This document shows positions 1,809 to 18,948 of a DNA stretch of 64,000 bases, piece after piece. The position numbers and the translations under genes are program-made. The DNA is taken from positions 1-64,000 of the forward strand of contig NZ_LZRN01000016.1 in assembly GCF_001678675.1 (NCBI RefSeq). The letters run 5' to 3'. This DNA comes from Gelidibacter algens (GTDB lineage: Bacteria > Bacteroidota > Bacteroidia > Flavobacteriales > Flavobacteriaceae). The notes beneath the pieces were generated by a model. The model saw only the letters and a program-made list of their open reading frames with translations. It ran no database searches and was not told where the DNA came from. Position 1 is the stretch's first letter. Every line of letters begins with the position of its first letter.

Positions 1809-4070
1809 CTATGAGACTTCCGATGTAAAATAACTTCTGTAATCAAAACCCGAAAACATTTGCTCGACCACTTCAAACTTCTCAAGCATTCCTGCAATGG
1901 CTTCTCTAATATCCACAATTGGACTGCCTTCGCCACCGCTTTGTAAATAAACTGCCATAGCATTTCGAAGGTCTTGACCGATGCCAATATAATCCACAAT
2001 TAAACCGCCCGGCTTATCTCCGTAAACTCGGTTTACTCGGGCAATGGCTTGCATTAAATTGGCACCCTGCATTTTCTTATCGACATACAAAGTGTGTAAA
2101 CTTGGCGCATCAAAACCTGTAAGCCACATATCACGTACAATAACCAATTTTAGGGAATCATTTTTATCTTTCATTCGCAACGCCAATTCTTTGCGTTGCT
2201 TTTTGGTGGTATGATGGGGTTGAAAAATAGGAAGGTCATCAGAAGAGCTGGTCATAACAACTTTAATAGTACCTTGAGTTAAATCGTTACTATGCCATTC
2301 AGGACGCAATGCAATTATTTCATTATAAAGTAATACGCAAATTCTGCGTGTCATTCCGACGATCATTGCTTTGCCATCAAACACTTCTTGGCGGGCTTCA
2401 AAGTGAGCAACTAAATCTTTAGCAATATCTATAATGCGTTCAGGATGCCCGATTACTGCTTCAATGGTGGCAGTTCTCTTTTTTACGTATTCCAATTGTT
2501 CTTCAGAAACGTGTGCAATAGCGTTTATTTCTTCATCGATAGTTGCAGCAGTTTTTTCATCCAGCTTGATTTTTACCAAACGTGATTCATAACTAATTGG
2601 CACGGTTGCACCATCATCTACTGCTTGTTTAATATCGTAAACATCTATATACTCGCCAAAAACGGCAGGTGTGGACTTGTCTTCTTTTTCTATGGGCGTT
2701 CCTGTAAAACCAATGTACGAGGCATTGGGTAGCGCATCTCTTAAATACTTGGCATTACCATACCGAATTTCACTGCCTTCATCGGTTTCAACTTCACGCG
2801 CTTTAAAACCGTATTGACTACGGTGTGCTTCATCGGCAACCACTACAATATTGGTGCGCTCAGATAGGGTATCAAAAACATTGCCTTCTTCTGGCGAGAA
2901 CTTTTGAATGGTGGTAAAAATAACGCCACCGCCACTAACGTTTAATAGTTCTTTAATGTGTTCTCTGTTTTGCGCTTGCACCGGGCTTTGGCGTAATAAT
3001 TCTTTACAGTTTCCAAAAGTGGAAAAGAGCTGATCGTCTAAATCGTTTCTATCGGTAAGTATGACGATGGTTGGATTTCCCATTGCGGGATGCGTTACTA
3101 TTTGACCGCTATAAAACACCATCGACAGCGATTTTCCTGAACCTTGTGTATGCCAAACTACCCCAATTTTACGATCGCCATCTTCAGCGTGTGTCGCTCT
3201 TATGGTTTGGGTTACTGCTTTTTGAACGGCATAATATTGATGATAGGCGGCTACTTTTTTAATTTTGACTTGAAATATCAAGCCTGTGCTTTTATCCTTT
3301 TTTTCTTCTTGCTCAAAAACGGTACAATAGCGAATAAGTTCCACCAAGGTTTTTTTATTGAGCATATGCTCTGTAAGAATTTGTAGTTCTGTTCTAGGAT
3401 CATTAGGATTTGGAATAGGGGTTTTCCAACTCAAAAACCTTGAAAAAGGTGCGGATAAGCTTGATGTTTTAGCTTCAATACCATCACTAATAATGCAAAT
3501 GCTGTTGAAATAAAAAATACTAGGGACAGCGGTCTTGTAATTCTGTATTTGTTGATGGGCTCTTAGCAGGGTCGCCTTCTTATCTGTTGCATTTTTAAGT
3601 TCTGCAAAAACTAAGGGTAAACCGTTGACGAAAATGACCACGTCAAAACGCTTTTCATTATTGTTTTCTTTAACAACCAATTGATTGACTGCCCAAAAAC
3701 TATTGTTTTCTGGCTGAACCACATCTAATAATTTGATATTAATCCCGCGTGTTCTGCCATCTTTATGATATTCTACCGTAACGCCATTTGTTAGATAGGT
3801 ATGAAAACGCTCGTTGTTTTCCATAAGATCTAAAGTGCCTAAGTTTTTCACTTTTTGGAAGGCTTCATTTCTCGCCATTTGTGAAACGTCTGGGTTTAGT
3901 TTTTGGATAGCAGCTTTTAATTGTTGCTCTAATAAAACTGACTCAAAACTCTCGCGTTGCGGATTCTTGCTGTAAGGTGCGATATCTGGTCCGTAATGAT
4001 AAGTGTAGCCTTGCTCAATAAGTTGTGCTATAAACGCTTGCTCAATGCTGTCTTCAGTAATTTTAGTCAT
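1809..4070 (-). CDS. hsdR: Type I restriction enzyme R subunit, truncated by amber codon
   Basis: This is the ATP-dependent translocase and endonuclease subunit of a type I restriction-modification complex. The N-terminal nuclease core is visible near residues 140-160 (FDVVIF then AELK, a PD-(D/E)xK arrangement). The helicase motor follows: Walker A HTQGSGKS near residue 310, DEAH box ADEAHRSQYG near 420, GFTGTP near 460 and QAIARVNRVYG near 690. The protein stops at TAG 1809-1811, directly before the conserved C-terminal domain that continues in frame. At 753 residues it keeps nuclease and motor but lacks the assembly domain, so activity as part of a complex is doubtful. It starts 15 bases after hsdS, implying one transcript hsdS-hsdR. 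No hsdM lies in the window. Confidence 0.9.
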   Translation of the reverse strand: MTKITEDSIEQAFIAQLIEQGYTYHYGPDIAPYSKNPQRESFESVLLEQQLKAAIQKLNPDVSQMARNEAFQKVKNLGTLDLMENNERFHTYLTNGVTVEYHKDGRTRGINIKLLDVVQPENNSFWAVNQLVVKENNNEKRFDVVIFVNGLPLVFAELKNATDKKATLLRAHQQIQNYKTAVPSIFYFNSICIISDGIEAKTSSLSAPFSRFLSWKTPIPNPNDPRTELQILTEHMLNKKTLVELIRYCTVFEQEEKKDKSTGLIFQVKIKKVAAYHQYYAVQKAVTQTIRATHAEDGDRKIGVVWHTQGSGKSLSMVFYSGQIVTHPAMGNPTIVILTDRNDLDDQLFSTFGNCKELLRQSPVQAQNREHIKELLNVSGGGVIFTTIQKFSPEEGNVFDTLSERTNIVVVADEAHRSQYGFKAREVETDEGSEIRYGNAKYLRDALPNASYIGFTGTPIEKEDKSTPAVFGEYIDVYDIKQAVDDGATVPISYESRLVKIKLDEKTAATIDEEINAIAHVSEEQLEYVKKRTATIEAVIGHPERIIDIAKDLVAHFEARQEVFDGKAMIVGMTRRICVLLYNEIIALRPEWHSNDLTQGTIKVVMTSSSDDLPIFQPHHTTKKQRKELALRMKDKNDSLKLVIVRDMWLTGFDAPSLHTLYVDKKMQGANLMQAIARVNRVYGDKPGGLIVDYIGIGQDLRNAMAVYLQSGGEGSPIVDIREAIAGMLEKFEVVEQMFSGFDYRSYFTSEVS

Positions 4071-4085
4071 TTTTGGTCACGCTTT

Positions 4086-5366
4086 TTATTTCTCTGCTAA
4101 TTGAATTGTTTCAATATTTTTAACCCGCAATTGCCCGCTCATTAATTTTGGTAATAAGGTGTCTCTGGTTTCAGATAAGTTTTTAATTGCTTCTTTATTT
4201 AAGGAAATTTTTTTTGTTGTTGAATTGGCTATTATTGAAAATTCATTAACTTTTTTGAAATCTATAGGTAGTGGTAATTCATAATCTGGTATAGCCTTTT
4301 TAGATAAATGTAAAACAGTAGTTCCATTTGAATATCCTACACAGTGGCCTTTGAACTTCCTGTCTTTCATTAAGTAATATAGAAACGATGTTGAAATATC
4401 TTTATGATTTGGTATAACTTTTACCAAGTCCATAGTAATAAACATTCTATTAAAACCACCGTTATCAAAAATAAATGCAGGATTTCCAAGAACTTCTGCA
4501 TCTTGTGTTAAATCAGTGTGAGCGACTACTAAATCGCCAATTACAACTTCTTGAGTAACTTTAGGATTTCCTTTAAATGGTTTAAATCCTCTTGTTTGAA
4601 AACCACCACTTCTATCAAAGCTTTTTAACGTTACCAACGCTTCGTCGCTTTCATCTACCAATTCTTTCCCTTTATAAGAGTAACCATTGATAGATTTTAC
4701 TAACTCACTTAATTTAAAAGTTTTCCAACCCTCAGGCAATTCATCTCCAATTTGATACTTCCCAAACCATTCTTTGAAAATAGTTTGTGCGGTTTGTTCT
4801 AAGGTTTCGTTTTGAGCGCGTAGGTTTTCTATTTTGTCATCAAAAGCAGTTAAGACTTTGGCAATGGCTTTTTGTTCTGTGAGCTGTGGAAACTTGATAG
4901 GGATACTTTTCAGAATACCCGTGTTTATTGAAGGCATTGTAGCACCAACTGAAATTTTAAAAATGAAACTTCTAAATCTGGGTTGTCTAAAAAAATAACT
5001 CAAATATTTTGAGTCTACTTTTTTTGTTGGTCTAACGGATAACATTCTCGAAGAAAACATCCATCCATCTTGATTTTTAGAAACGTATGCACTTAGATCA
5101 ACTGAACCAACACGAGTAAAAACGATATCTCCTTCTTTTAATAAATATTTTGACAACCTGTCTCTATCTTCAATAGTAACACTTGGATAATCAAAATCTT
5201 TAATTTTGAAATCTTCAATATGTTCAACTGTAATTACAGGTGTACCTCCTGTTATATATTGCTCATTTTTCAATTGACTACCAAATGGTCCTGTCTGAAC
5301 CTTAGAAACCTCGCCTAAAGTAGTTTTAGTCCAATTTTCAAATAAATCGTTTTCTTCTTGACTCAT
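4086..5366 (-). CDS. hsdS: Type I restriction-modification specificity subunit S
   Basis: This is the DNA-recognition subunit that sets the bipartite target of a type I methylase/restriction complex. The architecture is typical. The first target-recognition domain covers about residues 10-165 (opening WTKTTLGEVSKVQTGPFGSQ). A central conserved helix covers about 170-205 (AKVLTAFDDKIENL, then FKEWF). The second recognition domain covers about 215-375 (opening GWKTFKLSELVKSINGYSYKG), and a second helix follows with TRDTLLPKLMSGQL near 405. At 426 residues it is full length. It precedes hsdR by 15 bases. The expected upstream partner hsdM is missing: upstream there are only hairpins and then an unrelated gene. 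The S subunit looks intact while its partners are missing or interrupted. Confidence 0.93.
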   Translation of the reverse strand: MSQEENDLFENWTKTTLGEVSKVQTGPFGSQLKNEQYITGGTPVITVEHIEDFKIKDFDYPSVTIEDRDRLSKYLLKEGDIVFTRVGSVDLSAYVSKNQDGWMFSSRMLSVRPTKKVDSKYLSYFFRQPRFRSFIFKISVGATMPSINTGILKSIPIKFPQLTEQKAIAKVLTAFDDKIENLRAQNETLEQTAQTIFKEWFGKYQIGDELPEGWKTFKLSELVKSINGYSYKGKELVDESDEALVTLKSFDRSGGFQTRGFKPFKGNPKVTQEVVIGDLVVAHTDLTQDAEVLGNPAFIFDNGGFNRMFITMDLVKVIPNHKDISTSFLYYLMKDRKFKGHCVGYSNGTTVLHLSKKAIPDYELPLPIDFKKVNEFSIIANSTTKKISLNKEAIKNLSETRDTLLPKLMSGQLRVKNIETIQLAEK

Positions 5367-5708: not shown

Positions 5709-7403
5709 CTATTTTTTAATAAACTTTCTAACGCTTGAGTTATTTTGATCGTCGGTGATGATCAAGTGATAGATACCATTTGCTAATTGTGACACATCCA
5801 AACTGTTTGAATCAGACAGTTTATAACTGTTTGTATTCAATTTTCTACCTTGGATATCAATAATATCTAACCTGACATTTTCCAAATTTAAACCTGCAAT
5901 ATTTAGGTTCTGGGATACAGGGTTAGGGTATAGCTTAAAGGTGTTCAGATCAGATTCATTAACAGATAAAGGCACCATAGGTAGGGCAATCAAGTTACCT
6001 CCAGCTGGGAGTGCTACCCAGATTCCGAAAGCAGGACCGTTACTGTTTTTTGACGGATCGAGAAACCCTGAGGCTAATGCTGTTACCGCAGCACCTTGTA
6101 AATTTAAAGTAGCTAAAGGCATTTCATAGGTTGCTACCACGACTGCTCCTGAAGCATCCTTAACCTCAATAACATAATCATCTGTTGCTAATTCAAGATA
6201 ACCCTGAAACTCACCGTAGCTAATGTCATCAACTAGAGTTCCTTCGCCAACACCTGTTTCAACAATGTCAACCGTTGGGGCGTCAGTACCGCCATGGTGT
6301 ACCAAAATATCGGTATTGCTGCCGGTTGTTGCGGTTTCTCTTCCCATAGCATACACATTCAATCCGAAAGGTTGATTAGGTTCATAACCTGATGGGCTTA
6401 CAATACCATCAGCGACCACAATATAAGTTTCGTCAGCGGTAAGTGTCACAGGAAAGGCCGCAATGGCATCAGCAACTGAAGTGCTGTTTGCAGGAGCGAC
6501 GGCAATGTTGATTTGTGTATCCGCAGGCAAATTTAAAAATGGAGTTGCGGTTCTAAACGTAAAGTCATCGATGGCAAGTTCGCCATTGACATAAACATCC
6601 ACTTCAGCAGCGGCTGCATCTGGTGAATTGTGGACAACTTGCACACGCGCTATTTTACTTGTAGGTAATGGAATTAAGGCTCCACCAGAAGCTTTAGCAA
6701 CCCAAATTCCAAAAGCTGGTCCATTACTGTTATTTGACGGGTCCAAAAATCCTGAAGCTACAGCAGTCACTGCGGCTCCATTGAGATTAAGAGCGGCCAA
6801 TGGCAAATCATACGACCGTACTGTAGTCTCTCCAGAGGCATCACGTACTTCAATTTTGTAATTGGCTGTTGGGAGTATAATATAATTTTTGAATTCCCCG
6901 TAACTGATATTGTCCACAAGCGTTGTTGGCCCATCGGTGCTCACTCTCACAACATCTACCGTTGGTGCATCGGTGCTGCCGTGATGAACTAAAATGTCTG
7001 TATTTGGGCTTACTGTAGCGACAACTCTTCCAAAAGGATAAACATTTAAAATGAAAGGTTTTGCGGGTGCATACCCGGTTGTACTTAAGATACCGTCTGC
7101 AATAATAACATACGTTTTACTAGGTTCGAAGGTAAAATCCTGTTCATAAACAAATGCTGCTGAAGACGTGCTGTTTGCGGGAGTAATTTTTATGTTTAAT
7201 GGTGTACCCGAAGGTAGGTTTAAGAATGCTGTTGCATTCCTGAATTTGAAATTAGCAATGACTATGGCATCATTCAAATAGACGTCCACATTTTCAAGAG
7301 CCGCATCGGGAGAGTTGTGAATTACCTGAACCCTTGCGGTTTGGGATTGGGTCACTTGAAAAAAGCCAAGTGTTAAAGTAAAAATGAGTAATAGTTTTTT
7401 CAT
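5709..7403 (-). CDS. DUF4397-repeat protein with type IX secretion sorting tail
   Basis: This 564-residue protein is predicted to be surface-attached or secreted. A signal peptide covers residues 1-20 (MKKLLLIFTLTLGFFQVTQS). Two tandem copies of a roughly 225-residue DUF4397 module follow, opening ARVQVIHNSPDAA near residue 23 and ARVQVVHNSPDAA near 252. Each has the NTDILVHHGSTDAPTVD or NTDILVHHGGTDAPTVD core and ends in a GPAFGIWVA block. The last ~80 residues are a Por/type IX sorting domain: FKLYPNPV, then LDIIDIQGRKL, then LANGIYHLIITD and a final KFIKK. The signal peptide would take it through Sec and the tail through the outer membrane. The DUF4397 function is unknown; an adhesive, Ig-like role is only a guess. 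It appears monocistronic. Confidence 0.93.
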   Translation of the reverse strand: MKKLLLIFTLTLGFFQVTQSQTARVQVIHNSPDAALENVDVYLNDAIVIANFKFRNATAFLNLPSGTPLNIKITPANSTSSAAFVYEQDFTFEPSKTYVIIADGILSTTGYAPAKPFILNVYPFGRVVATVSPNTDILVHHGSTDAPTVDVVRVSTDGPTTLVDNISYGEFKNYIILPTANYKIEVRDASGETTVRSYDLPLAALNLNGAAVTAVASGFLDPSNNSNGPAFGIWVAKASGGALIPLPTSKIARVQVVHNSPDAAAAEVDVYVNGELAIDDFTFRTATPFLNLPADTQINIAVAPANSTSVADAIAAFPVTLTADETYIVVADGIVSPSGYEPNQPFGLNVYAMGRETATTGSNTDILVHHGGTDAPTVDIVETGVGEGTLVDDISYGEFQGYLELATDDYVIEVKDASGAVVVATYEMPLATLNLQGAAVTALASGFLDPSKNSNGPAFGIWVALPAGGNLIALPMVPLSVNESDLNTFKLYPNPVSQNLNIAGLNLENVRLDIIDIQGRKLNTNSYKLSDSNSLDVSQLANGIYHLIITDDQNNSSVRKFIKK

Positions 7404-7871: not shown

Positions 7872-8432
7872 TTACAATCTGAAGACTGCTTGTACAAAAT
7901 GTTGCCAGTGATTGTTGTCGAATTCGCGATTTTTCGCATTGACCGCAAATTTTGCTGTGGTCTGAAGCCGTACCCCAAAATACTCGCTGAACCAATATGC
8001 AGCACCTACTGATATGTTGCCCGAGGTGTTCAATTCATCAATGGTAAATAGGCCAACCCCTGCACCAACATACACATCCAACCAATCCTCCTCCGGAAAG
8101 ATATAATCCGTAAAATACCATTTAAAATTGGTGTTTGTAGAGAAATAAGTCAAGGTTTTGTCTGGCGTGCCGTTGTCAATAGCGACACCTTTTTTAAAAC
8201 CGTTGAAACTCAAATCCTGTTCAATAGCGAATTCTCTGGACCATTTGTTTTCAAAGGCTACAGCGAATGGTGTTCTGAATGCGAAATCTCCTAAATTCTC
8301 CACAGGATTTCTTGTTCCCAAATTTCCAACAGCATTAAATCCTGCACTAAAATACCAACCTGTGTCAAATCTTTGCGCTTGGGAACTCCATGCCATAAGG
8401 CCGATAAACAAACAAATAACCAATTTTTTCAT
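7872..8432 (-). CDS. Small outer-membrane beta-barrel protein
   Basis: This 186-residue protein has a signal peptide (MKKLVICLFIGLMAWSSQA, residues 1-19) and an alternating amphipathic pattern of short strands rich in aromatic residues (FDTGWYFSAGFNAVGN, FKWYFTD, DVYVGAGVGLF, ISVGAAYWF, VRLQTTAKF). It ends in FRL, an aromatic-type terminus of a barrel. The size fits an eight-stranded OmpA-like or porin-like barrel with no peptidoglycan-binding domain. Such proteins are common in Flavobacteriaceae and their function is generally unknown. It lies 71 bases downstream of the nucleotidyltransferase gene on the same strand. It may share the transcript, but nothing ties its role to that cluster. Confidence 0.8.
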   Translation of the reverse strand: MKKLVICLFIGLMAWSSQAQRFDTGWYFSAGFNAVGNLGTRNPVENLGDFAFRTPFAVAFENKWSREFAIEQDLSFNGFKKGVAIDNGTPDKTLTYFSTNTNFKWYFTDYIFPEEDWLDVYVGAGVGLFTIDELNTSGNISVGAAYWFSEYFGVRLQTTAKFAVNAKNREFDNNHWQHFVQAVFRL

Positions 8433-8503: not shown

Positions 8504-9547
8504 TTACTTTTTTTGAGGATTAAGCTTATTTCTTAGCACGTGCATACGATAACTTTTGTTGCCAACTAATAAGTTAAGTCGTTCTCCTACAGCATCTAGT
8601 AAGTATAACGTTTTTTGACAATAGTGGCCCATTTTGGGATGTGTCAATTTATACCTATAATACGATTTTATAAATTTGGAATAGCCATTGGTTTGAAAGG
8701 GCTTAAGTTCAGGAAAATAGAGGCTTGAGAGTTCTAAAAAGCACTGCGCATGTTTCTGAGATGATAAAACATGGAGCAGTTCTTTGTTCTGATGAAGTTC
8801 CAAAGCCAAACAATCATAGACGCTCTTAAACTTAATGTATCCAAAAAGATGCGCTTTATCATTGATCTGCGATGTGAAAATGGCAATGCGAATAGCATCT
8901 TCAATAGATGGAACGAAGATGCCTTCTATATGCTGCTTTTTTTGAAGTACGGAGGTAGTGTCAATGAGCAATCTATACTTATGGACTAAAGTTTCATGGT
9001 GCAATTCAACGGCACCCATTTTTTTAGGATGGATTTGCCGTGAGAGATGACGGTAATTTTTCTGTATATAATTAAAGGCCACTGTTTGGGTGTAACCATT
9101 CACTTCAAGAAGGGTAAAGGCCTGTTGCACTTGGTTTGGTGCTACTAAAATATCAATGTCGCCAATCATCCGTTCGGCACGATCCTTAAAAGTATGGCCC
9201 GCAATAAGCGCCAACCCTTTTATAAAAACATGGTCGATTTGTGATTTGTGAAACAGTTCTGAAATGGCGTGAGCTTCGGTGATTAAAACCTCATTTCTGT
9301 TGCGGTTGATGGCTGTTAATTCTTCCAAATACAATTCTAGATCTTTCGGAATATAGGACAGCAACCCTTTTGCCCTGAGTTGGCAATACAGCGCTGGAAG
9401 CATCAAATGCTGACTGGCGATGGTGACCACTGCATCCCAATTGGTCTCAGTAGTATTAAAAAGGGACATAAGAGCGACACCATTAGTCTCAAAACTTAAG
9501 ATGTCAGCCATAAGCTGTAATGTGGAATGCGCGGAAGTCTTGGTCAA
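8504..9547 (-). CDS. NTP_transf_5-type nucleotidyltransferase
   Basis: This 347-residue protein belongs to the uncharacterised nucleotidyltransferase family often found beside RiPP or PEP-CTERM-type clusters. The catalytic core is near residues 110-145: FIKGLALIAGHTFKDRAERMIGDIDILV shows the metal-binding IGDIDIL acidic pair after the KG turn. The rest is helical with no further motif I can name. It is the last gene of the minus-strand series peptide, kinase, nucleotidyltransferase, starting 53 bases after the kinase stop. The same kinase and nucleotidyltransferase types accompany some lasso-peptide clusters, for example those with a peptide kinase. That is the basis for suggesting it modifies a peptide or carrier here; the substrate is unknown. 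Confidence 0.82.
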   Translation of the reverse strand: MTKTSAHSTLQLMADILSFETNGVALMSLFNTTETNWDAVVTIASQHLMLPALYCQLRAKGLLSYIPKDLELYLEELTAINRNRNEVLITEAHAISELFHKSQIDHVFIKGLALIAGHTFKDRAERMIGDIDILVAPNQVQQAFTLLEVNGYTQTVAFNYIQKNYRHLSRQIHPKKMGAVELHHETLVHKYRLLIDTTSVLQKKQHIEGIFVPSIEDAIRIAIFTSQINDKAHLFGYIKFKSVYDCLALELHQNKELLHVLSSQKHAQCFLELSSLYFPELKPFQTNGYSKFIKSYYRYKLTHPKMGHYCQKTLYLLDAVGERLNLLVGNKSYRMHVLRNKLNPQKK

Positions 9548-9600
9548 AGTTATGATTTAAGCATTTTCAAAAATAACCAACACAACGGACATTTAATGAA

Positions 9601-10626
9601 TTACCTTTTAAATAACTCAGAAAATTTCGAAACTGCTACCGCATTGTCCGCATAGGTAAGCTCATAACAGGTGAGTTCTTGTAGCCATTCTAAAAACAGT
9701 GCCGCATTGGGTGCCAGAGGTGATAGCCAAGATTCCGGGATCAAGGTTTCCAAAATTTTCTCTGTCGGTACGGCTTTCAAATGTGACGTCGCTGTGGGGT
9801 CATAGTTTACATAGACGATTTTTGTACATGGTAAATGCGACACGGCACTGTTAAAATTTTGAGCAGGCGGAATATATTTGATAGGAACCGCCTTTGAGGT
9901 GCTTTTATAAATAGGATACTGCTCAAAATCAGGATACAGTTTTTCTAAAATCTCAAAGGCGCCTTCTTTAATGGAGATGCCTGATGGCACCCGATACAGT
10001 TCTTTTGTCTCTGCCAGTAACGGCGTGAAATCATCCGCGAGGAGATCAAATCCGTGGGCCATGAGTACTGCAGATAAAGTGCTTTTCCCATTCCCGGAGG
10101 CGCCAATAATCATAATGGCTTCCTTAGCATTACACACTGTGGAGGCATGAAAGGTGGCGATCCAATCCGCTTCAGTTTTGTTGTAAAGTGTGTTGATCAG
10201 CTGTAATGAGAATTGGCCTTGCAAGAGGTGGTATTCTGAGGGTGAATACTGTCCAATATAAGCTTGGTTTATGAAGAGATAGCTCAAATTATCTTTTTCA
10301 AAGATATCCACTACAGTATTGGAAGTTTTATTATCATCACCTGCTGTGTGGGAGTATTGCGGGTGGATTAAATTTTGAAGTTTTAAGGACCCATAATTAA
10401 TCTTTAAGTTTGTAGTGCCAAAAGCATAGTGAACCGCATTTTCTATTTTTGGAACCGCTGGTAGCGTTTTAATTTCAGTGTTCTTTTCTGTGACGGTGTT
10501 GACACTGTTAAGTAGGGTGCTGATTTCAGTGTAATAGGTTGCAGCAAGCTCTGGAGATATATGGTCGTGCCTTTGTAAATGCCTAATAAAAGAAGCTTTG
10601 TTGGGGGTTGTCAGAAACACATCCAT
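9601..10626 (-). CDS. HprK-related kinase with probable PqqD-like N-terminal extension
   Basis: This is an HPr-kinase-like P-loop protein. Walker A IIGASGNGKSTL lies near residue 175, followed by LLADDFTPL near 195 and the YRVPSGISIKE block. This is the fold used by HprK and by lasso-peptide tail kinases such as the paeninodin type. The ATG at 10626 is probably not the true start. The frame is open upstream to a TAG at 10744-10746 and reads LWFEKSNQYLVVSETIK, resembling a PqqD-type leader-binding module. No ATG, GTG or TTG lies in that extension, so the real start would be a rare codon or a sequence change. A decayed paralogue at 11241-11690 conserves the extension (LRIQKTNQYFVIAEAVK), which supports it being coding. 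The gene follows the 57-residue peptide gene directly. Phosphorylation of that peptide is inference. Confidence 0.82.
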   Translation of the reverse strand: MDVFLTTPNKASFIRHLQRHDHISPELAATYYTEISTLLNSVNTVTEKNTEIKTLPAVPKIENAVHYAFGTTNLKINYGSLKLQNLIHPQYSHTAGDDNKTSNTVVDIFEKDNLSYLFINQAYIGQYSPSEYHLLQGQFSLQLINTLYNKTEADWIATFHASTVCNAKEAIMIIGASGNGKSTLSAVLMAHGFDLLADDFTPLLAETKELYRVPSGISIKEGAFEILEKLYPDFEQYPIYKSTSKAVPIKYIPPAQNFNSAVSHLPCTKIVYVNYDPTATSHLKAVPTEKILETLIPESWLSPLAPNAALFLEWLQELTCYELTYADNAVAVSKFSELFKR

Positions 10627-10749
10627 TATATGTTTGATAGTCTCTGAAACAACCAGATATTGATTGGATTTTTCAAACCAAAGTATGAAACTGTTTGCCG
10701 TTTGAGAAAAATGTGTTGGGCTGATGTTATGAAATTTAGAACGCTATAG

Positions 10750-10923
10750 TTAAGGGATGTCAAAGGGTCCACCACCCGGATCGGTTGGTGTTGGGGAAGC
10801 TTGTGCGGCTTTCAAAGGTTCCAATATCAAAAAAGTACCCACTGCGGTAAGGGCGGCATATTTGCCCAGTCGCTGAAGTGCTTCTTTCCTAGATATTCCA
10901 ACTGCGGAAATTTTCTTTTCCAT
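10750..10923 (-). CDS. 57-residue leader-type peptide, copy 1
   Basis: This small gene encodes MEKK, then ISRKEALQRLGKYAALTA, a hydrophobic VGTFLIL, an A-x-A site (AAQA) and a 15-residue tail SPTPTDPGGGPFDIP. The SRKxAL sequence before a modest hydrophobic segment resembles a Bacteroidota twin-arginine-type signal with RK in place of RR. The tail is rich in Pro and Gly and has no Cys. The second copy at 11759-11929 is nearly identical through the leader but has a different tail. That pattern, conserved leader with variable C-terminus, is what precursor peptides show. It ends a few bases before the kinase coding frame opens. A modified peptide product is inference; an alternative is a small membrane-anchored exported peptide. 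Confidence 0.75.
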   Translation of the reverse strand: MEKKISAVGISRKEALQRLGKYAALTAVGTFLILEPLKAAQASPTPTDPGGGPFDIP

Positions 10924-11034
10924 GTCATAAATATAGTGATTTTTATAAGATACATAATGTCTATAAAAATAGTTTTTTTGAATTCCAAAAAAACCAAACT
11001 ACCGTCTCGTATTCAAAAGAAAAAGCGCACCTTT

Positions 11035-11157
11035 TTAAGGTGCACTCTCCGTAAGAACTGAGTCAATGGTTTTGCATACAGACTTCTGCGTTTTTTCGTG
11101 GGAACGATGCTTCTGCTTCACTTTATCAACGCCTATAGCCATTTGAGACAGGTCCAT
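11035..11157 (-). pseudogene. Remnant of a type IX secretion sorting tail
   Basis: A 40-codon frame reads MDLSQMAIGVDKVKQK, followed by EKTQKSV. This matches the end of the sorting domains in the two large secreted proteins nearby (LDLSQLNTGVYIVKLK and EKTQKVMLK). Only the last ~30 residues of the domain survive and no secreted protein precedes them. I take it as debris of a duplicated secreted-protein gene caught in the peptide/kinase duplication. A GC-rich hairpin (GCACCTT/AAGGTGC) lies at its end, near 11027-11043. Confidence 0.45.
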
Positions 11158-11240
11158 TTAACTGTCAGTAGTATTTTAATTTAACTTAACCTTGCTCATT
11201 AACTGGGCGTGGATGTTAATTGCGCTTTCTCTTATGGACA

Positions 11241-11690
11241 TGCTTAGTGGCAGCTGATGCAGTTTTTTAGTTGCTGCCAATAAAAGGGTTGATACAATAA
11301 GCCAAGAGATCAAATCCGTGGCAGATCTACATCTAAAACTGCTGCACGTGCATATTGGAGGTGCTTTAATTGCGGAAGGAATGCTGAACCGTAATTGACG
11401 ATCAGATCAACATGGCCAAATTTATAAAAATTTACCTCATCAGTATTGAGGTAAAATGGAGTGGCTCGGTTTTTATTTGTGGCTTGAGATGCGTAATTGA
11501 ACTGTCGAGGAGTACGCTAATTTCTTTTGTAGTAAACGTCAGGCTAGAATTTGAAATATCTTCTACTGTAAATGTGCTCTAAAAGCAGACTTGGTAGAAG
11601 ATTTTAAATACGTTTCAACACTATTTTTTACAGCTTCTGCTATAACGAAGTATTGATTGGTTTTTTGAATCCTTAGCACATAACTTGACC
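11241..11690 (-). pseudogene. Decayed second copy of the PqqD/HprK-like kinase
   Basis: Scattered blocks match the intact kinase gene at nucleotide level. The segment around 11257-11321 matches the kinase region 9997-10058, sharing AGATCAAATCCGTGG. The segment near 11501-11545 matches the kinase region near 10500. The segment 11590-11690 matches the kinase N-terminus. In the last block the minus strand reads LRIQKTNQYFVIAEAVK, continuing to SAFRAHLQ and then an in-frame TAG. The intact copy reads LWFEKSNQYLVVSETIK, continuing to ASFIRHLQ. Frame breaks, the stop and large deletions show it is not functional. It sits right after peptide copy 2, so peptide plus kinase was duplicated as a unit. 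Confidence 0.7.
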
Positions 11691-11758
11691 ACAGTTAAAT
11701 CACCATATGTGCGGCTATTTTGAAACTCAACTAAGTAGTGGTCACTAAATCAGCACTA

Positions 11759-11929
11759 TCAAGGAAACACTTCGCATTCTACACATGGTGGTGCATCGTG
11801 AGACGAAGCCTGTGCTTGTTTTGGATTTAGGATTAAAAAAGTGCCGACAGCCGTAAGCGCGGCATATTTGCCCATGCGTTGCAAGGCTTCTTTTCTAGTA
11901 ATCTCAGATTTGGGTTGGTTCTTTTCCAT
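11759..11929 (-). CDS. 56-residue leader-type peptide, copy 2
   Basis: This is a paralogue of the peptide at 10750-10923. The leader ITRKEALQRMGKYAALTA, hydrophobic VGTFLIL and A-x-A site (NPKQAQA) are almost unchanged, but the tail is SSHDAPPCVECEVFP. It contains a Cys-x-x-Cys pair absent from copy 1. Both tails end in a short aromatic/Pro sequence (FDIP, VFP). Preservation of the leader while the adjoining kinase copy is wrecked suggests the peptide is still used, perhaps by the intact kinase. A perfect TAnnTTTG match (minus strand, 11934-11941) lies 4 bases before the ATG, so the message may be nearly leaderless; no -33 box is at good spacing. Function unknown. Confidence 0.75.
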   Translation of the reverse strand: MEKNQPKSEITRKEALQRMGKYAALTAVGTFLILNPKQAQASSHDAPPCVECEVFP

Positions 11930-12061: not shown

Positions 12062-14266
12062 TTATTTCAGCATGACTTTTTGCGTTTTTTCTTGAGCTTT
12101 ATTTTTCAATTTTACAATATATACACCCGTACGCAAATTGGACATGTCCACTTCATGGCTTTGGCTATTTCCGTTTAATTCTTTAGTGCTCATCAATCTG
12201 CCCTGTAAATCATAAATAGTTACTAAAGTATGTGATTGAAGTTGCCCCTTTACTATTAAAGTTCGAGACGTATTGTTAGTAAAAATTCGCACTATGTCAG
12301 TGTCAGTATTATCAGTTGATAAGGTCGTATTGGAAAAACGAAGATAAAAACGTCCTGTGGAAGCCAAATTTGATTCTGCTGTAAAAATATAGTCAGATGA
12401 ATTCAATAACGTAAAAGTGTTTTTTAAGTTGTCTTCTAAATACACTTCAGTGCCCTCTGGCAATATGGATTCAGCAATGCTTAATGTAATTTGTTGTCCT
12501 GAAGCTGCATTGACACCCAAAGGAACAATCACATCGTTTTGAAGATCTTCAAAGTTTAGAGATTGTATAGCCATATCGTCACCTTCATTATTTTCAACTA
12601 AATGAGAGTATACTGCGAAAGCTGGTGCGGTACCTCCATAAATACTCGCGTCGTATCCTGCGTCCATACCTTTTGATGATGCGTCATTAAAATACAACTC
12701 TGTACGGTACTGTTGTGTATGGCTAGATATTTTTAAATTCACGAAACCTAGTTTATAGGCGTCGCTGGTATTTCTGCCTAAAATAAAATCGTCTGTATTT
12801 CCCGTGGTGCGCATCTCTGGGGTAAATATGATCGCTCCAACATCATTTTTGGATGACAGAAAGAAGCCTTGGCCTGGAGTGATACGAGCGTTTTCTTGAT
12901 TATAAGGTAAGGTAGCCAAATTAACAATTGTCCACCCGTCAGAGGATTTTCCATCAAAGCCATAAATAGCAGCTGCAGTAGGAGAAAGTTGCGATACGTT
13001 AGCTTTTAAAAATGTTTCAGTATCAATATAAGATGGATATGGGTTTCCGACTAAATTCCAAGATTTAGAATAAGGTCCAGATTTGTAAATATTTACATTT
13101 ACAGGTGCTGTGTTGACCTTTCCGGTGAAGGTGAAAGCGCTATTGTCAGAAGAAGCTGTTCTGTACCCCATTCCAGCTTTCAAAGGGGTGTTCTCCGTAT
13201 TTGAGTAGTTTACAAAAGTACCTGTAGTCTTGTTGAAAACACCAAAAAGGAATAACGTATTAGTTGCGTTGCTAATTATATTTGGATTTTTAGTGCGGAA
13301 GGTATCAAAAGTCTCATCTGATACTGGTGCTGAAACTAGATCATTGCCTCCTTTTTGAGTGTTGATATGGCGTTCGTACTTTGTAGTTCCCGTCACAGTG
13401 CCGTTTACAATTAAACTGGAATACTGTGTTGAACTTGACTCTAAAGTGACGTTATCAGAAGTAATTAAGTTGCCATTGACCGTAATAGATCCTGTATTCT
13501 TGACCACAAGACCAGCACCTGGAGCAACCGTAAAGTTTTTTGCTTTGATATTATTTGTTACGATATACATCCCCTTTTCTATCAATATATCCTTAGTGCC
13601 GGTGTTCTCTTCTGGAGCACTAGGCGACCATTTGGTGCCATTGTAAACTAATCCTTCATATGTTACCGTACCTTCTAGTATGATCCCTGTATGTTCAAGT
13701 TGAAGGATGTTGCCCAAGCCACCTTCAATGGCAAGTGTGCCGTCCTCAGACTTTTTTCCACCTTTAGCTTTATAGCCATAGAGCCTAAAAATAATGATAC
13801 CCCCTTTAGCACTGAGGTCGGTAGAGATAACAGGAGATTTTCCAGAGTCTTTTCCGTTCTTATCGAAGTAGATATCTTTTGTGAAATTATCGGCATTGGT
13901 TCTTATGCTGACCTCTTTTGGACCTTTCCCATGACCAGAGGCACCCTTCCCGTTGCTTGCATCGGTAGTATAATCAATTTGTAGGCTAGTGATTTTAATT
14001 TCATAACCAGGCGCTGCTGTAACAGACCATTCTATATAATCATTGACATCTAAAGTCTGGTCAGTTGTCCAACCACCACTGTTAAATGTAGCACCGCCAG
14101 CATCTATAAGTCCAGGACCTCTGGATAAAGCTGTTGCGGTAATAGTGCCATTTAGAGTCTTGGCGGCAGGGGTAGATGTCCCTGAAAAAGCTGCAATCTC
14201 TCGGCTTTGGCTACATATAGACATGGAGAGTGAAAAAATAAATAAAGAAGTAATTAGTGTTCTCAT
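12062..14266 (-). CDS. Large type IX-secreted protein, paralogue A
   Basis: This 734-residue protein has a signal peptide (residues 1-20, MRTLITSLFIFSLSMSICSQ). An N-terminal module follows, with RGPGLIDAGGATFNSGGW and NDYIEWSVTAAPGYEIKITSLQID. A beta-helix-like stretch covers about residues 230-290 (KNFTVAPGAGLVVKN, GSITVNGNLI). Next is a central domain containing YERHINTQKGGNDLVSAPV and WNLVGNPYPSYID. The last ~80 residues are a type IX sorting domain (VTIYDLQGRL, LRTGVYIVKLKNK, VMLK). The same layout occurs in the next gene, so the two arose by duplication. It is predicted to be exported by Sec and then the type IX system. A role at the cell surface is all that can be said. Its promoter is probably at 14296-14324. 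Confidence 0.92.
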   Translation of the reverse strand: MRTLITSLFIFSLSMSICSQSREIAAFSGTSTPAAKTLNGTITATALSRGPGLIDAGGATFNSGGWTTDQTLDVNDYIEWSVTAAPGYEIKITSLQIDYTTDASNGKGASGHGKGPKEVSIRTNADNFTKDIYFDKNGKDSGKSPVISTDLSAKGGIIIFRLYGYKAKGGKKSEDGTLAIEGGLGNILQLEHTGIILEGTVTYEGLVYNGTKWSPSAPEENTGTKDILIEKGMYIVTNNIKAKNFTVAPGAGLVVKNTGSITVNGNLITSDNVTLESSSTQYSSLIVNGTVTGTTKYERHINTQKGGNDLVSAPVSDETFDTFRTKNPNIISNATNTLFLFGVFNKTTGTFVNYSNTENTPLKAGMGYRTASSDNSAFTFTGKVNTAPVNVNIYKSGPYSKSWNLVGNPYPSYIDTETFLKANVSQLSPTAAAIYGFDGKSSDGWTIVNLATLPYNQENARITPGQGFFLSSKNDVGAIIFTPEMRTTGNTDDFILGRNTSDAYKLGFVNLKISSHTQQYRTELYFNDASSKGMDAGYDASIYGGTAPAFAVYSHLVENNEGDDMAIQSLNFEDLQNDVIVPLGVNAASGQQITLSIAESILPEGTEVYLEDNLKNTFTLLNSSDYIFTAESNLASTGRFYLRFSNTTLSTDNTDTDIVRIFTNNTSRTLIVKGQLQSHTLVTIYDLQGRLMSTKELNGNSQSHEVDMSNLRTGVYIVKLKNKAQEKTQKVMLK

Positions 14267-14463: not shown

Positions 14464-16713
14464 TTATCTCAGCATGATCTTTTGAGTGATCTCTTGTATA
14501 GTATTTTTAAGTTTTACAATATAAACACCGGTATTTAATTGGGATAAATCTAATTGATTCGTGTTGCTGTTTGCCTTTAATTGTACGTTATTTACAAGTC
14601 TTCCGTGAATATCATACACAGACACCGCTGTATTTTCTTTTAGAAGTCCTTTTACGAATAACACTTTAGAATCAGTCGCGTAAAGTTGCAAACCACTTAA
14701 TTCGTTCGGGTCGGATGTCGATAATGTGGCTTTTGTGAATCTTAAAAAGAATCTCCCAGTACCTACTAACTTTGAATTTGCAGTAAAGACATAGTCAGAT
14801 GTGTTTAATAAAGTGAACGTATTATTTACATTGTCTTCTAAATACACTTCAATACCTTCAGGTAACATCGACTTTTCAATACTTACGGTAATTTGCTCAC
14901 CCTTTGCCATATTAATACCTAAGGGAATAAGGACGTTACTAGTTAAATCCTCAAACGGAAGGGATTGTACCGCTAAATCAATGCCTGTATTATTGTCAAC
15001 TAACTGCGTATAGATTGCGAAGCTTGGTGCATTTTTACCAAATACGGCAGCGTCGTAGCCTTTGTCCAGTGCTTTTGTTGAATTATCATTAAAGTAGAGT
15101 TCTGTCTTATAACTTTTAGCACCGGTATGTATCTTAAGTTGGGTATATGCTGCATTGGTATTGGCAGTTCTATTTGGAATAAAATCATCAGATGTTCCAG
15201 TGCTCCGCATTGCGGCATTGAAAGAAATGGTTCCTCCCCCAGGTTTTGAGGCTACAAAAAAACCTTGCCCAGGGGCTATCAGCTCGGTCGCATTGTTATT
15301 ATTCAAAATCGTCCAACCATCCGATGAATTGCCATCAAACCCATACACTGCTGCAGTATCATCATCAAAAGCAGTTTCGTTTTGATTGAAAAAATCTATA
15401 AAACGTATGTAAGACGGATAAGGATTGCCAATGAGATTCCATTTTTGGAAAGCTGTCCCCTCATTTGAAATGGGTTGATTAACGGTTCCTAAGTTGACAT
15501 CACCAACAAATGTAAAGGTGCCATTAACTATAGAAGCCGCTCTATAGCCAGTACCAGGATTCAGAGTTGTGCTTTCAGTGTCTGACCAGTTTACAAAGGT
15601 GCCATCCACTTTTTCAAAGGGACCAAACAAGAATACCGTACCATTGTTATTTCTGATATTATCATTATTAATTACAAATTCACTAAAAGGTTGCCCAGTA
15701 ACCGGAGCAGAAATAAGATCATTACCCGCTGCGTTGCTATTCACATGGCGCTTATAGGTGACATCTCCAATAGAAGTGCCTTCAACAATTAAACTTGAAT
15801 AGCGTGTTGAGGTAGAATTTAAGACCAGATTTCCTGGGTTGTCAAGATTATCACCTACTGAGAGATTTTCATTTATGGTGAGGTTACTTTCAGGAGTAAT
15901 GGTCACGGCGGCTCCATTGGCGATTACTAAATTTTTTATGAATACATTTTCATCTACAGACTCCCCATATTCATTTTTTCCAATGTCATAGGTGCCGTCG
16001 GCAATATAGACATTTTGATCCCCGGTTTCATCTGATGGTTTTACCGGAGTCCATTGTTCATTTGAATACTGTATACCGTCGTAGATTAAACTTCCTTTAA
16101 TGCGACAACCAGGGTTAGTAATACCAAAATCCGTTGTTAACAAAGTCTGTTGGATCGCAAGCATATTTTCTCCAGTTTCACTTCCACCCCAAGCATATAA
16201 GCGAAATTTAATCGTACCTCCAAAATCTGATATGATATTAAAACCAGTTACATTGATTGAGGATAAGGGATACTCGTCACCATCATAGGGGAGTAGGTCG
16301 GTTACGGCAGAGAGCGGCGCTTCATTTACAAAATCGTTAACGCTATAAAAAATTTGCCATTTTCTAGGGCCGCCCAAAGTTGTGTTTGCTGCAATTCGTA
16401 ACGCTGAGATTTTGAGTTTGAAATTAGGATCAGCAGTAACGGACCATTCTATAAAATCATTGGCATTTTTAGCGGTTTCTTTATCACCTAGTGCATTCCA
16501 GTTATTTGCTGTGAAAGTAGCGCTTAGTGGCGCACCATTTCCCAACCCGGGACCACGTGTAAAACCTATGGCAGACAAGTTATCAGCAAAACCTATAATT
16601 GTAGATTGTCCAACAGAGACATTGGCTTTATCTATGGACACAATAACCGGATCTTGCCCATACCCAAAATTAAAAGCAATTACTGTAATTAAAAGAAAGT
16701 AGAATTTTTTCAT
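14464..16713 (-). CDS. Large type IX-secreted protein, paralogue B
   Basis: This 749-residue paralogue of the preceding gene product has the same order of parts. These are the signal peptide (MKKFYFLLITVIAFNFGYG), an N-terminal module with RGPGLGNGAPLSATFTANNW and NDFIEWSVTADPNFKLKISA, and a beta-helix-like stretch (NLVIANGAAVTITPESNLTI). They are followed by YKRHVNSNAAGNDLISAPV, WNLIGNPYPSYIR, the FDGNSSDGWTI block, and the type IX sorting tail (VSVYDIHGRLV, LNTGVYIVKLKNT, IMLR). The C-terminal two-thirds is clearly more conserved between copies than the N-terminal third. It has its own terminator and its own -7 box, so the two copies are separate transcription units. Function beyond surface or secreted location is unknown. 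Confidence 0.92.
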   Translation of the reverse strand: MKKFYFLLITVIAFNFGYGQDPVIVSIDKANVSVGQSTIIGFADNLSAIGFTRGPGLGNGAPLSATFTANNWNALGDKETAKNANDFIEWSVTADPNFKLKISALRIAANTTLGGPRKWQIFYSVNDFVNEAPLSAVTDLLPYDGDEYPLSSINVTGFNIISDFGGTIKFRLYAWGGSETGENMLAIQQTLLTTDFGITNPGCRIKGSLIYDGIQYSNEQWTPVKPSDETGDQNVYIADGTYDIGKNEYGESVDENVFIKNLVIANGAAVTITPESNLTINENLSVGDNLDNPGNLVLNSTSTRYSSLIVEGTSIGDVTYKRHVNSNAAGNDLISAPVTGQPFSEFVINNDNIRNNNGTVFLFGPFEKVDGTFVNWSDTESTTLNPGTGYRAASIVNGTFTFVGDVNLGTVNQPISNEGTAFQKWNLIGNPYPSYIRFIDFFNQNETAFDDDTAAVYGFDGNSSDGWTILNNNNATELIAPGQGFFVASKPGGGTISFNAAMRSTGTSDDFIPNRTANTNAAYTQLKIHTGAKSYKTELYFNDNSTKALDKGYDAAVFGKNAPSFAIYTQLVDNNTGIDLAVQSLPFEDLTSNVLIPLGINMAKGEQITVSIEKSMLPEGIEVYLEDNVNNTFTLLNTSDYVFTANSKLVGTGRFFLRFTKATLSTSDPNELSGLQLYATDSKVLFVKGLLKENTAVSVYDIHGRLVNNVQLKANSNTNQLDLSQLNTGVYIVKLKNTIQEITQKIMLR

Positions 16714-17204: not shown

Positions 17205-17666
17205 ATGGCTTGGCACGTCCTCATCACAAAACCTAAATTTGAACTTAAAGTGGCGGAGCGTCTCACTGATCTGCACTTTGAAGTCTGTTGCCCTACCCGA
17301 GTTGAGATCCGGCAATGGAGTGACCGCAAAAAAAAGGTGACCGTTCCCTTATTGCCGTCCATGGTGCTTATTAACATCACAGACAAGGAACGTGCCGAGG
17401 TGTTTACGGTACATGGTGCGGTTCGTTATCTCTTTTGGTTGGGCAAACCCGCCATAGTACCTTCTAAAGAAGTGACTTTACTCCAGGATATTGCAGATAA
17501 AAAGCAACAGGTGCTCTCTACAGAAAAAATAGGCATAGGTCAAGAGATTAATTTAGAAGAATTTGGACTCACTGCAAAAAAAGGCACCGTAAAATATGTG
17601 TCGGGGAATCAGTGTTGGGTGGTGCTCCACAACTTGGGCTATGTTATAAAATTGAAAATTAAATGA
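17205..17666 (+). CDS. UpxY-family transcription antiterminator (NusG paralogue)
   Basis: This 153-residue protein is of the NusG/RfaH superfamily. In Bacteroides, UpxY proteins bind RNA polymerase and prevent premature termination in the 5' region of their own capsule operon. The NGN domain covers about residues 1-95 (AWHVLITKPKFELKVAERL, then VPLLPSMVLINI, then VHGAVRYLFWLGKPAIVP). A short KOW-type region covers about 115-150 (KKGTVKYVSGNQCWVVLHNLGYVIKLKI). It is the first + strand gene of the polysaccharide locus and is followed by 155 non-coding bases before gmd, the usual position for a locus-specific antiterminator. No UpxZ-like antagonist is seen. The assignment rests on fold features and position. 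Confidence 0.88.
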   Translation: MAWHVLITKPKFELKVAERLTDLHFEVCCPTRVEIRQWSDRKKKVTVPLLPSMVLINITDKERAEVFTVHGAVRYLFWLGKPAIVPSKEVTLLQDIADKKQQVLSTEKIGIGQEINLEEFGLTAKKGTVKYVSGNQCWVVLHNLGYVIKLKIK

Positions 17667-17830
17667 ACGCAGTAAAGGCATTCTCCAAATTAGTTCTATT
17701 TTTGCGTCTTCTTAGAGCTAAATCGTATAGCTTGTTTGAAATATAAGTAATTAAAAACCATATAGTTGCATTTTTTTATGTGACTATTCTTGGCGAAGCC
17801 ATGAGATTATTTAAATAGACAGTGATTAAA

Positions 17831-18946
17831 ATGAAAAAAGTTGCACTTATTACAGGAATTACAGGTCAGGATGGTGCCTACCTTGCCGAATTTCTATTGA
17901 ACAAAGACTATGAAGTCCACGGTGTCAAAAGACGCTCTTCCTTGTTCAATACCGATAGAATCGATCATTTATACCAAGATCCGCATGAGAAAAATCGCGA
18001 TTTTTTTCTGCATTATGGTGATTTGACCGACAGTACCAATTTGATCCGATTGGTGAAGGACATTCAACCTGATGAGATTTATAATTTAGCAGCCATGAGC
18101 CATGTTGGGGTCTCTTTTGAAATCCCAGAATATACCGGAAATACCGATGGCCTTGGAACGCTCAGAATATTGGAAGCCGTCCGTTTGTTGGGTATGGAGC
18201 AAAAAACCCGAATCTATCAAGCCTCTACTTCAGAGCTTTATGGCAAGGTGCAAGAAGTACCACAAACCGAGACCACACCTTTTTATCCGCGCTCTCCGTA
18301 TGCCGTGGCTAAAATGTATGCGTATTGGATTACGGTCAATTATAGGGAAGCCTATAATATGTTTGCGTGTAATGGAATCCTGTTCAATCACGAATCGCCA
18401 ATTAGGGGAGAAACATTTGTGACCCGTAAAATCACCAGAGCGGTCTCTCGGATTGCTCTTGGCTTGCAGGATAAAGTGTATTTGGGGAATTTGGATGCCA
18501 AAAGAGATTGGGGCCATGCCAAGGATTATGTGAGGATGATGTGGATGATCCTTCAGGCTGATGAAGCTGAAGATTGGGTCATCGCCACCGGAAAGACAAC
18601 CACAGTAAGGGATTTTGTAAAAATGGCCTTTGCTGAAGTCGGTATTGATGTGGTCTTTAAAGGCACAGGCGTGGAAGAAAAGGCGTTTGTGAGTGCGTGT
18701 CACAATCCCGAATTTCAATTGCCTGAGGGTATGGAAGTGGTGAATGTGGATCCTAAATATTTCAGGCCTACAGAAGTTGATCTTTTAATAGGCGACGCTT
18801 CAAAAGCCAAGAATAAATTAGGCTGGGTACCGCAATTGGATTTGCAGGATTTGGTCAAGGATATGATGCAAAGTGATGTCAAACTGATGCAGAAAGAGCA
18901 GTACTTAAAAGAAGGCGGCCACAAAACGCTTAATTATTTTGAATAA
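17831..18946 (+). CDS. gmd: GDP-mannose 4,6-dehydratase
   Basis: This enzyme converts GDP-D-mannose to GDP-4-keto-6-deoxy-D-mannose, the first step to GDP-L-fucose. It is an extended short-chain dehydrogenase: NADP-binding [11 protein letters not shown] at residues 8-18, the [16 protein letters not shown] block, the [11 protein letters not shown] segment with the catalytic Thr/Ser-Glu region, and the SPYAVAKMY Tyr-x3-Lys motif near 156. The length is normal (371 residues). I prefer the ATG at 17831 over the GTG at 17822 because it begins directly with the Rossmann strand. A weak promoter (TTTG 17735-17738, TATAGTTG 17761-17768) lies upstream. fcl follows after two bases. Confidence 0.96.
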
Positions 18947-18948
18947 GG

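Follow-up and report, generated by a model that had tools for sequence, protein, structure and literature searches.

The window analysed here, a stretch of 64,000 nucleotides of Gelidibacter algens, encodes two peptides of 56 and 57 residues that have a leader in common and lie beside an HprK-type kinase and an NTP_transf_5 protein. The locus raises the question of whether these genes form one system and what such a system would do. The arrangement was first proposed in a sequence-only reading, and its coordinates hold. We find that the peptide, the kinase and the NTP_transf_5 protein belong to a conserved gene set. This set includes a partner which that reading had missed, a surface protein with a type 9 secretion system (T9SS) sorting domain and a RemZ-like module; an invariant serine in the peptides had also been missed. 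The conserved gene set with its surface-protein partner is real and apparently undescribed, and the linkage of its members is solid.

Co-occurrence and linkage

One draw of 299 genomes from the same family was searched for both the peptide and the kinase. The peptide was found in 32 genomes and the kinase in 29: both are present in 28, the peptide only in four, the kinase only in one (G055, where it lies at a contig start) and neither in 266. The corresponding counts by genus are 22, 2, 1 and 211. Fisher tests give 6e-34 by genome and 1e-27 by genus, values that ignore relatedness. With the kinase in 28 of the 32 peptide genomes, a leader scattered without the enzymes is not the pattern, in line with the linkage that the sequence-only reading had expected. 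Chance resemblance of the twin peptides was rejected, considering that the leader is present in all nine searched genomes of the genus in addition to the 32 of the family. A search of 45 genomes for the NTP_transf_5 protein found it in 27 of the 29 kinase genomes, in none of the four with the peptide only and in none of 12 controls. The two kinase genomes with no such match, G074 and G158, are 87% and 82% complete.

The evidence for coupling goes beyond gene order: the genes also co-occur where they are unlinked. The peptides of G130 lie at C1:1099846 and 1220906 and its enzymes at 727165-729317, more than 370 kb apart. In G062 and G156, the peptide, kinase and NTP_transf_5 matches are spread over different contigs; in G156, 76 bases separate the kinase from a contig end, and a further adjacent peptide is possible there. 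Linkage was also viewed from the kinase, in a set of 43 loci of which 34 (L132-L165) were examined, some of them also within the 299 genomes; the others, L123-L131 from Gelidibacter, are L048-L055 or close kin. Of the 34 loci, 31 have a peptide close to the kinase, that of L140 being broken, and the other three have a kinase that starts no more than 42 bases into the contig. NTP_transf_5 was matched in 30 of these loci; in L165 it is found inside the kinase frame, and L156, L160 and L164 have none. When 395 genomes of the phylum were searched with the kinase at E 1e-10, 11 matches resulted, five strong, all from the same family, and six weak and partial.

Organisation of the locus

The features of the window that concern the system are as follows.

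14464..16713, minus strand: second tandem T9SS type A protein, clusters with the protein at 12062..14266 (TIGR04183, 44.6 bits)
12062..14266, minus strand: T9SS type A sorting-domain surface protein with a RemA/RemZ-like 400-residue module, putative partner (TIGR04183, 48.3 bits)
11759..11929, minus strand: precursor peptide 2, 56 residues, leader as in peptide 1, divergent tail containing cysteine
about 11270..11730, minus strand: decayed kinase copy, pieces in several frames (tblastn best E 6e-11; direct repeat D2; hidden Markov model stretch 11566-11694)
10750..10923, minus strand: precursor peptide 1, 57 residues, Tat-like (twin-arginine translocation) leader, A-x-A site, tail SPTPTDPGGGPFDIP
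9601..10743, minus strand: HprK/PEPCK-type kinase with an N-terminal winged-helix-like domain (TIGR04352, 75 bits; AlphaFold2 model with a predicted local distance difference test score, pLDDT, of 93.4; Foldseek matches to PEPCK and HprK/P)
8504..9547, minus strand: NTP_transf_5 nucleotidyltransferase-fold protein, putative second modifying enzyme (PF14907, E 2e-29; AlphaFold2 pLDDT 91)
7872..8432, minus strand: small outer-membrane beta-barrel protein, accessory neighbour (cluster c4)

The lines follow the order of transcription on the minus strand, from the two T9SS proteins to the outer-membrane barrel. In more than half of 40 mapped loci, only the peptide, the T9SS protein, the kinase and the NTP_transf_5 protein recur, with the rarer clusters annotated in part.

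The precursor peptide family

Peptides 1 and 2 are 74% identical over 43 residues (E 3e-19), and the leader of the family has the consensus (I)(T/S)RKEAL-x-x-MGKYAALTA-x-GTF-x-IL-N-P-K-K-A-Q-A. Alignment A2 comprises 41 of the 45 peptide matches and leaves out two of L053, in which the serine can be seen by eye, as well as L082 and L083, which are broken or cut. R12, A15, T26, L34, P36 and S43 are invariant in all 41. S43 sits one or two residues past an A-x-A-like, signal-peptidase-like site. On average, pairs of peptides are 71% identical in the leader and 50% in the tail. Tail and motif counts were made on 73 of 76 peptides, after three misfits to the pattern had been dropped. The tails have a median of 13 residues, are rich in proline, glycine, aspartate and serine, and follow the consensus S-x-PPDPGG-x-x-FD. 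The two tails of the window had been described as unrelated; that of peptide 2 is indeed divergent and among only two of 73 with a cysteine, but that of peptide 1 fits the family consensus.

The same peptide design extends beyond the family, to L162 on a Prolixibacteraceae metagenome-assembled genome (MAG) contig and to L165 on a contig labelled Candidatus Brocadiaceae. The L165 peptide reads SRRDALKTTGKYAALTS and has a true twin arginine; it narrowly passes the Tat profile TIGR01409 with 16.8 bits (cut-off 16.7). This divergent member lends slight support to the Tat-like export proposed earlier, but the peptides of the window match no NCBIfam Tat model. Compared with the PDB, the peptide profile gave one match, a weak one to an unrelated enzyme. 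It is noted that L078:1-132 and L122:1-126, two contigs of G062, both start at the identical leader residue, which could mean that the assembly broke at near-identical copies of the leader.

The decayed kinase between the twin peptides matches the intact kinase piecewise in tblastn, over residues 17-57, 78-134 and, weakly, 228-245. Its presence marks the twin, judged from the sequence, as a duplicated peptide-kinase cassette; the sequence-only reading had noted the twin peptides but overlooked the decayed copy. Kinase fragments also lie between the two peptides of L050, and a single cluster of Lutibacter agarilyticus, L139:7707-12320, combines three peptides with one whole kinase and further kinase fragments. 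Cassettes seem to duplicate and spare kinases seem to be lost while peptides are kept, as would follow if a single kinase acted on several peptides.

The two enzymes

The best NCBIfam match of the window kinase is TIGR04352 (HprK_rel_A), with 75.4 bits and thus below the cut-off of 200. All kinases in alignment A3, which comprises 27 of 30 near-full-length sequences (L049, L051 and L077 excluded), match this family at E 1 or better, the best at 1.5e-23. By these profile scores the window kinase is a relative of HprK-related kinase A and not a member. H199, K220, D237 and D238 are invariant in all 27 and probably correspond, residue for residue, to the His-Lys-Asp-Asp of the lasso kinases. Together with the Foldseek matches of the model to PEPCK and HprK/P, they support the HprK fold that had been claimed. 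The N-terminal domain is predicted, at residues 11-81, to form three strands followed by three helices (E-E-E-H-H-H).

The identity of the NTP_transf_5 protein, also claimed earlier, is confirmed by a PF14907 score of 103.4 bits against a gathering cut-off of 31.2. R129, D133, D135, E184 and H186 are invariant across the 26 rows of alignment A4 (26 of 29 proteins; L049, L051 and L052 excluded). Foldseek relatives of its model are weak (best E 0.0035), and the top ones are mostly named nucleotidyltransferases. In L165:1859-3592, kinase and NTP_transf_5 occupy a single frame of 578 residues, from which, by eye, about 100 residues of the kinase end and the NTP_transf_5 start are absent. This fusion was set aside as Rosetta-stone proof, as the missing part may mean a deletion or an assembly fault.

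The T9SS surface partner

The nearest open reading frame (ORF) upstream of the peptide carries the T9SS type A sorting domain TIGR04183 (cut-off 23) in 56 of 63 distinct cases. The background, from 445 T9SS tails in 8 genomes, is roughly 1.7% of genes if 1.1 kb per gene is assumed. The 63 cases derive from 76 distinct peptide matches; for five of them the stretch contains no ORF upstream, and others shared an ORF or were more than 1 kb away from one. Among the misses, L081 scores 18.2 bits (E 0.0018), L121 and L140 have decayed peptides, and the neighbour in L165 has a CFI-box-CTERM domain instead (84.6 bits, cut-off 40); L059, L075 and L076 are taken up below.

The partners resemble each other well beyond the sorting domain. 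Once the last 90 residues had been trimmed off, the window protein at 12062..14266 was matched by 39 of the 40 other upstream proteins chosen by hand. The 41 hand-picked proteins exclude L059, L075, L076, L121 and L140, which have no T9SS tail, L066, at 2 kb distance, and L052, L077 and L132-L156 except L139. A model of the 400 residues before the sorting domain was trained on 22 closer loci, and it recognises all 16 held-out partners and none of 60 other T9SS stretches taken from 8 genomes that have the system, these being the top-scoring tails (3.2-3.7 kb, partly overlapping) and no matched sample. L165, L159 and L067 were excluded from the full model. The window has two frames with the module. 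The module is not covered by any Pfam or NCBIfam family, and the window protein at 12062..14266, as a single sequence, has no PDB match at E 0.01. Alignment A9 of the module, with this protein as its first row, matches RemA at 948-1344 (E 6e-34) and RemZ at 617-1012 (E 2e-32), both of Flavobacterium johnsoniae.

Neighbouring genes

The outer-membrane barrel (cluster c4) is present in 17 of the 40 mapped loci. It was rejected as a core part, because its relatives, found in 41 of 45 genomes, are not confined to those that have the system and are not diagnostic. Directly downstream of the operon lies another T9SS type A protein with DUF4397 repeats (5709-7403, minus strand), followed at 1809-5366 on the same strand by proteins that resemble, by eye, the HsdR and HsdS subunits of type I restriction systems. 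A scan of three proteins for defence systems with PADLOC gave no match, and a defence system was rejected on this ground. On the plus strand, at 17205-19893, a NusG-like gene and then sugar-nucleotide genes, named by eye, appear to start a polysaccharide cluster; a similar gene also adjoins the unlinked kinase and NTP_transf_5 pair in L116.

Proposed mechanism and alternatives

We propose, with about an even chance of being right, that the locus is a peptide-maturation operon tied to the RemZ-like T9SS surface protein, in which the precursor serine is phosphorylated, perhaps further modified by the NTP_transf_5 protein, and the peptide is exported and cut, to function together with the surface protein. 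From the gene set, its co-occurrence and linkage, the invariant residues and the predicted folds, we infer the following course. The N-terminal domain of the kinase would bind the precursor of 50-60 residues via the conserved leader, and the kinase would phosphorylate, in the cytoplasm, the invariant serine past the A-x-A site. The NTP_transf_5 protein could then add a sugar or nucleotide to the phosphate, by analogy with what is reported for PsmN on a lasso peptide. The Tat-like leader would carry the modified peptide over the inner membrane, where signal peptidase would free a Pro/Asp/Gly-rich peptide of about 13 residues. This peptide may act as a ligand, a cofactor or an anchor for the surface protein encoded beside it.

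Several observations weigh against this proposal. A simple serine-pattern test is failed by five of the 73 peptides; in L066, L165 and the decayed L140 the serine is present and was overlooked by the pattern, and the two that do lack it, L082 and L083, are broken or truncated. Of the 73 peptides, 64 have RK in the Tat motif and one has RR, no Tat model recognises the window peptides, and TatC, found in 44 of 45 genomes, is too nearly universal to be diagnostic. The front part of the kinase had been called PqqD-like, which was not confirmed: PqqD is not among the best 25 of 34 families for A3 nor among all 24 for A8, and no relative of PqqD or of the RiPP recognition element (RRE) was recognised among the PDB matches of the kinase, which leaves the predicted three-strand, three-helix fold. 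The window kinase frame (10626-10749 region, minus strand) has no ATG, GTG or TTG before the LWF motif, the sole such case of 30 loci; the other 29 have one of these codons ahead of the motif, in 16 of them a TTG 18 codons ahead. The rest of the frame is open, and the window kinase may have a rare start, a recent start loss or a sequence error.

The surface partner is subject to similar objections. The gene upstream of the peptide is FolD in L075 and L076, and in L059, one of the two peptide loci of G130, the upstream protein has an adhesin-Lcl-like end and no T9SS tail. The 60 control stretches do not match the partners as a sample. The Rem-like module is, from its sequence matches, wider than the peptide system, because RemA and RemZ of F. 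johnsoniae carry it, and exclusiveness of the module to the system is not claimed. As to co-occurrence, the genomes are related, so that the Fisher and binomial values overstate independence, and the genomes with the peptide only, G143, G281, G289 and G301, are 82-92% complete, with stops within the match in G289 and G301.

In one alternative, the peptide is a membrane-anchored regulator: its hydrophobic stretch would stay in the inner membrane, and phosphorylation would tune the expression or export of the T9SS protein. The strong conservation of the leader relative to the tail and the close coupling of the T9SS gene to the peptide fit this. We nevertheless regard it as unlikely, as the A-x-A-like site, the invariant serine and the P/D/G tail suggest release, and the divergent L165 passes a Tat model, if narrowly. 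We think it similarly improbable that the product is an antimicrobial or signalling RiPP (ribosomally synthesised and post-translationally modified peptide), diffusible after modification, with the T9SS protein a mere conserved neighbour. Such a product would agree with tails that vary more than leaders and with the enzyme pair known from lasso RiPPs, namely PadeK/ThcoK, PsmK and PsmN in the excerpts of PMC9266682 used here, and HPr kinase plus nucleotidyltransferase in ruminal lasso clusters in those of PMC7533575. However, the four recurrent genes are the only ones in more than half of the mapped loci (a transporter being possible among the partly annotated rarer clusters), the T9SS protein carries a specific module, and it is found upstream of the peptide even in L060, where the peptide is far from the enzymes. 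Finally, polysaccharide-like genes, named by eye, near the window cassette and beside the unlinked enzyme pair of G130 could mean that the two enzymes act elsewhere, for example on the T9SS protein or a polysaccharide carrier, with the peptide only a scaffold or a co-inherited gene, but this is less likely still, given that co-occurrence with the enzymes holds even for peptides encoded far from them, and that the peptide has one invariant serine.

A bolder version of the maturation proposal, which we consider doubtful, can be formulated: RemZ-like T9SS proteins of this type would each own a small exported peptide, on which the shared kinase and nucleotidyltransferase make a phospho-glycan or nucleotide group that, once the surface protein has been secreted, anchors, activates or marks it. 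The L165 locus, on a MAG labelled as another phylum, combines the same peptide and enzymes with a CFI-box-CTERM protein, hinting at a general pairing of modified exported peptides with C-terminally sorted surface proteins. If the proposed peptide maturation is correct, peptide phosphorylation, perhaps with phosphate-linked glycosylation, would occur beyond lasso products, on exported peptides that are linked with surface adhesins. A RiPP-like precursor would have a leader that doubles as secretion signal, and type 9 secretion in Bacteroidota would gain an unrecognised partner. The system also offers a simple co-expression route to the function of NTP_transf_5 proteins.

Comparison with known systems

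No description of this system was found in the literature searched, which consisted of open PMC papers, taken in excerpt. A lasso cluster was rejected. The B2 transglutaminase-like leader peptidase of lasso systems (PF13471) is present in none of 33 genomes, the same search being positive in 2 of 14 control genomes, and an asparagine-synthetase-like cyclase, sought in the window's own genome, gave four matches there, none on the window's contig C16. The absence of both had been noted in the sequence-only reading, and it is supported.

The closest parallels are nonetheless the tailoring enzymes of lasso peptides. As excerpted from the review PMC9266682, PadeK/ThcoK/SyanK and PsmK with PsmN (paeninodin, pseudomycoidin) likewise combine an HprK-type kinase having His-Lys-Asp-Asp with a nucleotidyltransferase; the kinases need this motif and modify the C-terminal serine of the precursor. 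A hexose on the phosphoserine requires PsmN, which is annotated as a nucleotidyltransferase, and the same text leaves open whether PsmN is a glycosyl- or a nucleotidyltransferase. Its likeness to the window protein lies in this annotation; the family of the window protein is PF14907. HPr kinase, PqqD and an uncharacterised nucleotidyltransferase are described as frequent companions of ruminal lasso clusters (PMC7533575, in excerpt). Unlike the lasso systems, the present one has a Tat-like leader with an A-x-A site and a T9SS neighbour, and its serine lies near the mature N-terminus, a difference from the C-terminal target of the lasso kinases that also counts against the mechanism proposed above.

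The kinase shares the Walker loop, the histidine and the Asp-Asp pair with the HPr kinase/phosphorylase and PEPCK folds, in agreement with Foldseek and profile matches, but differs from them in its weak sequence similarity and its extra N-terminal domain, and no HPr role is implied. The surface partner has its 400-residue module in common with the T9SS gliding adhesins RemA and RemZ of F. johnsoniae, from which its N-terminal part differs, and the excerpts of PMC10994853 used here do not mention a peptide-kinase set beside these adhesins. By homology, the gene set probably works like the PsmK/PsmN pair, in a setting other than that of a lasso system.

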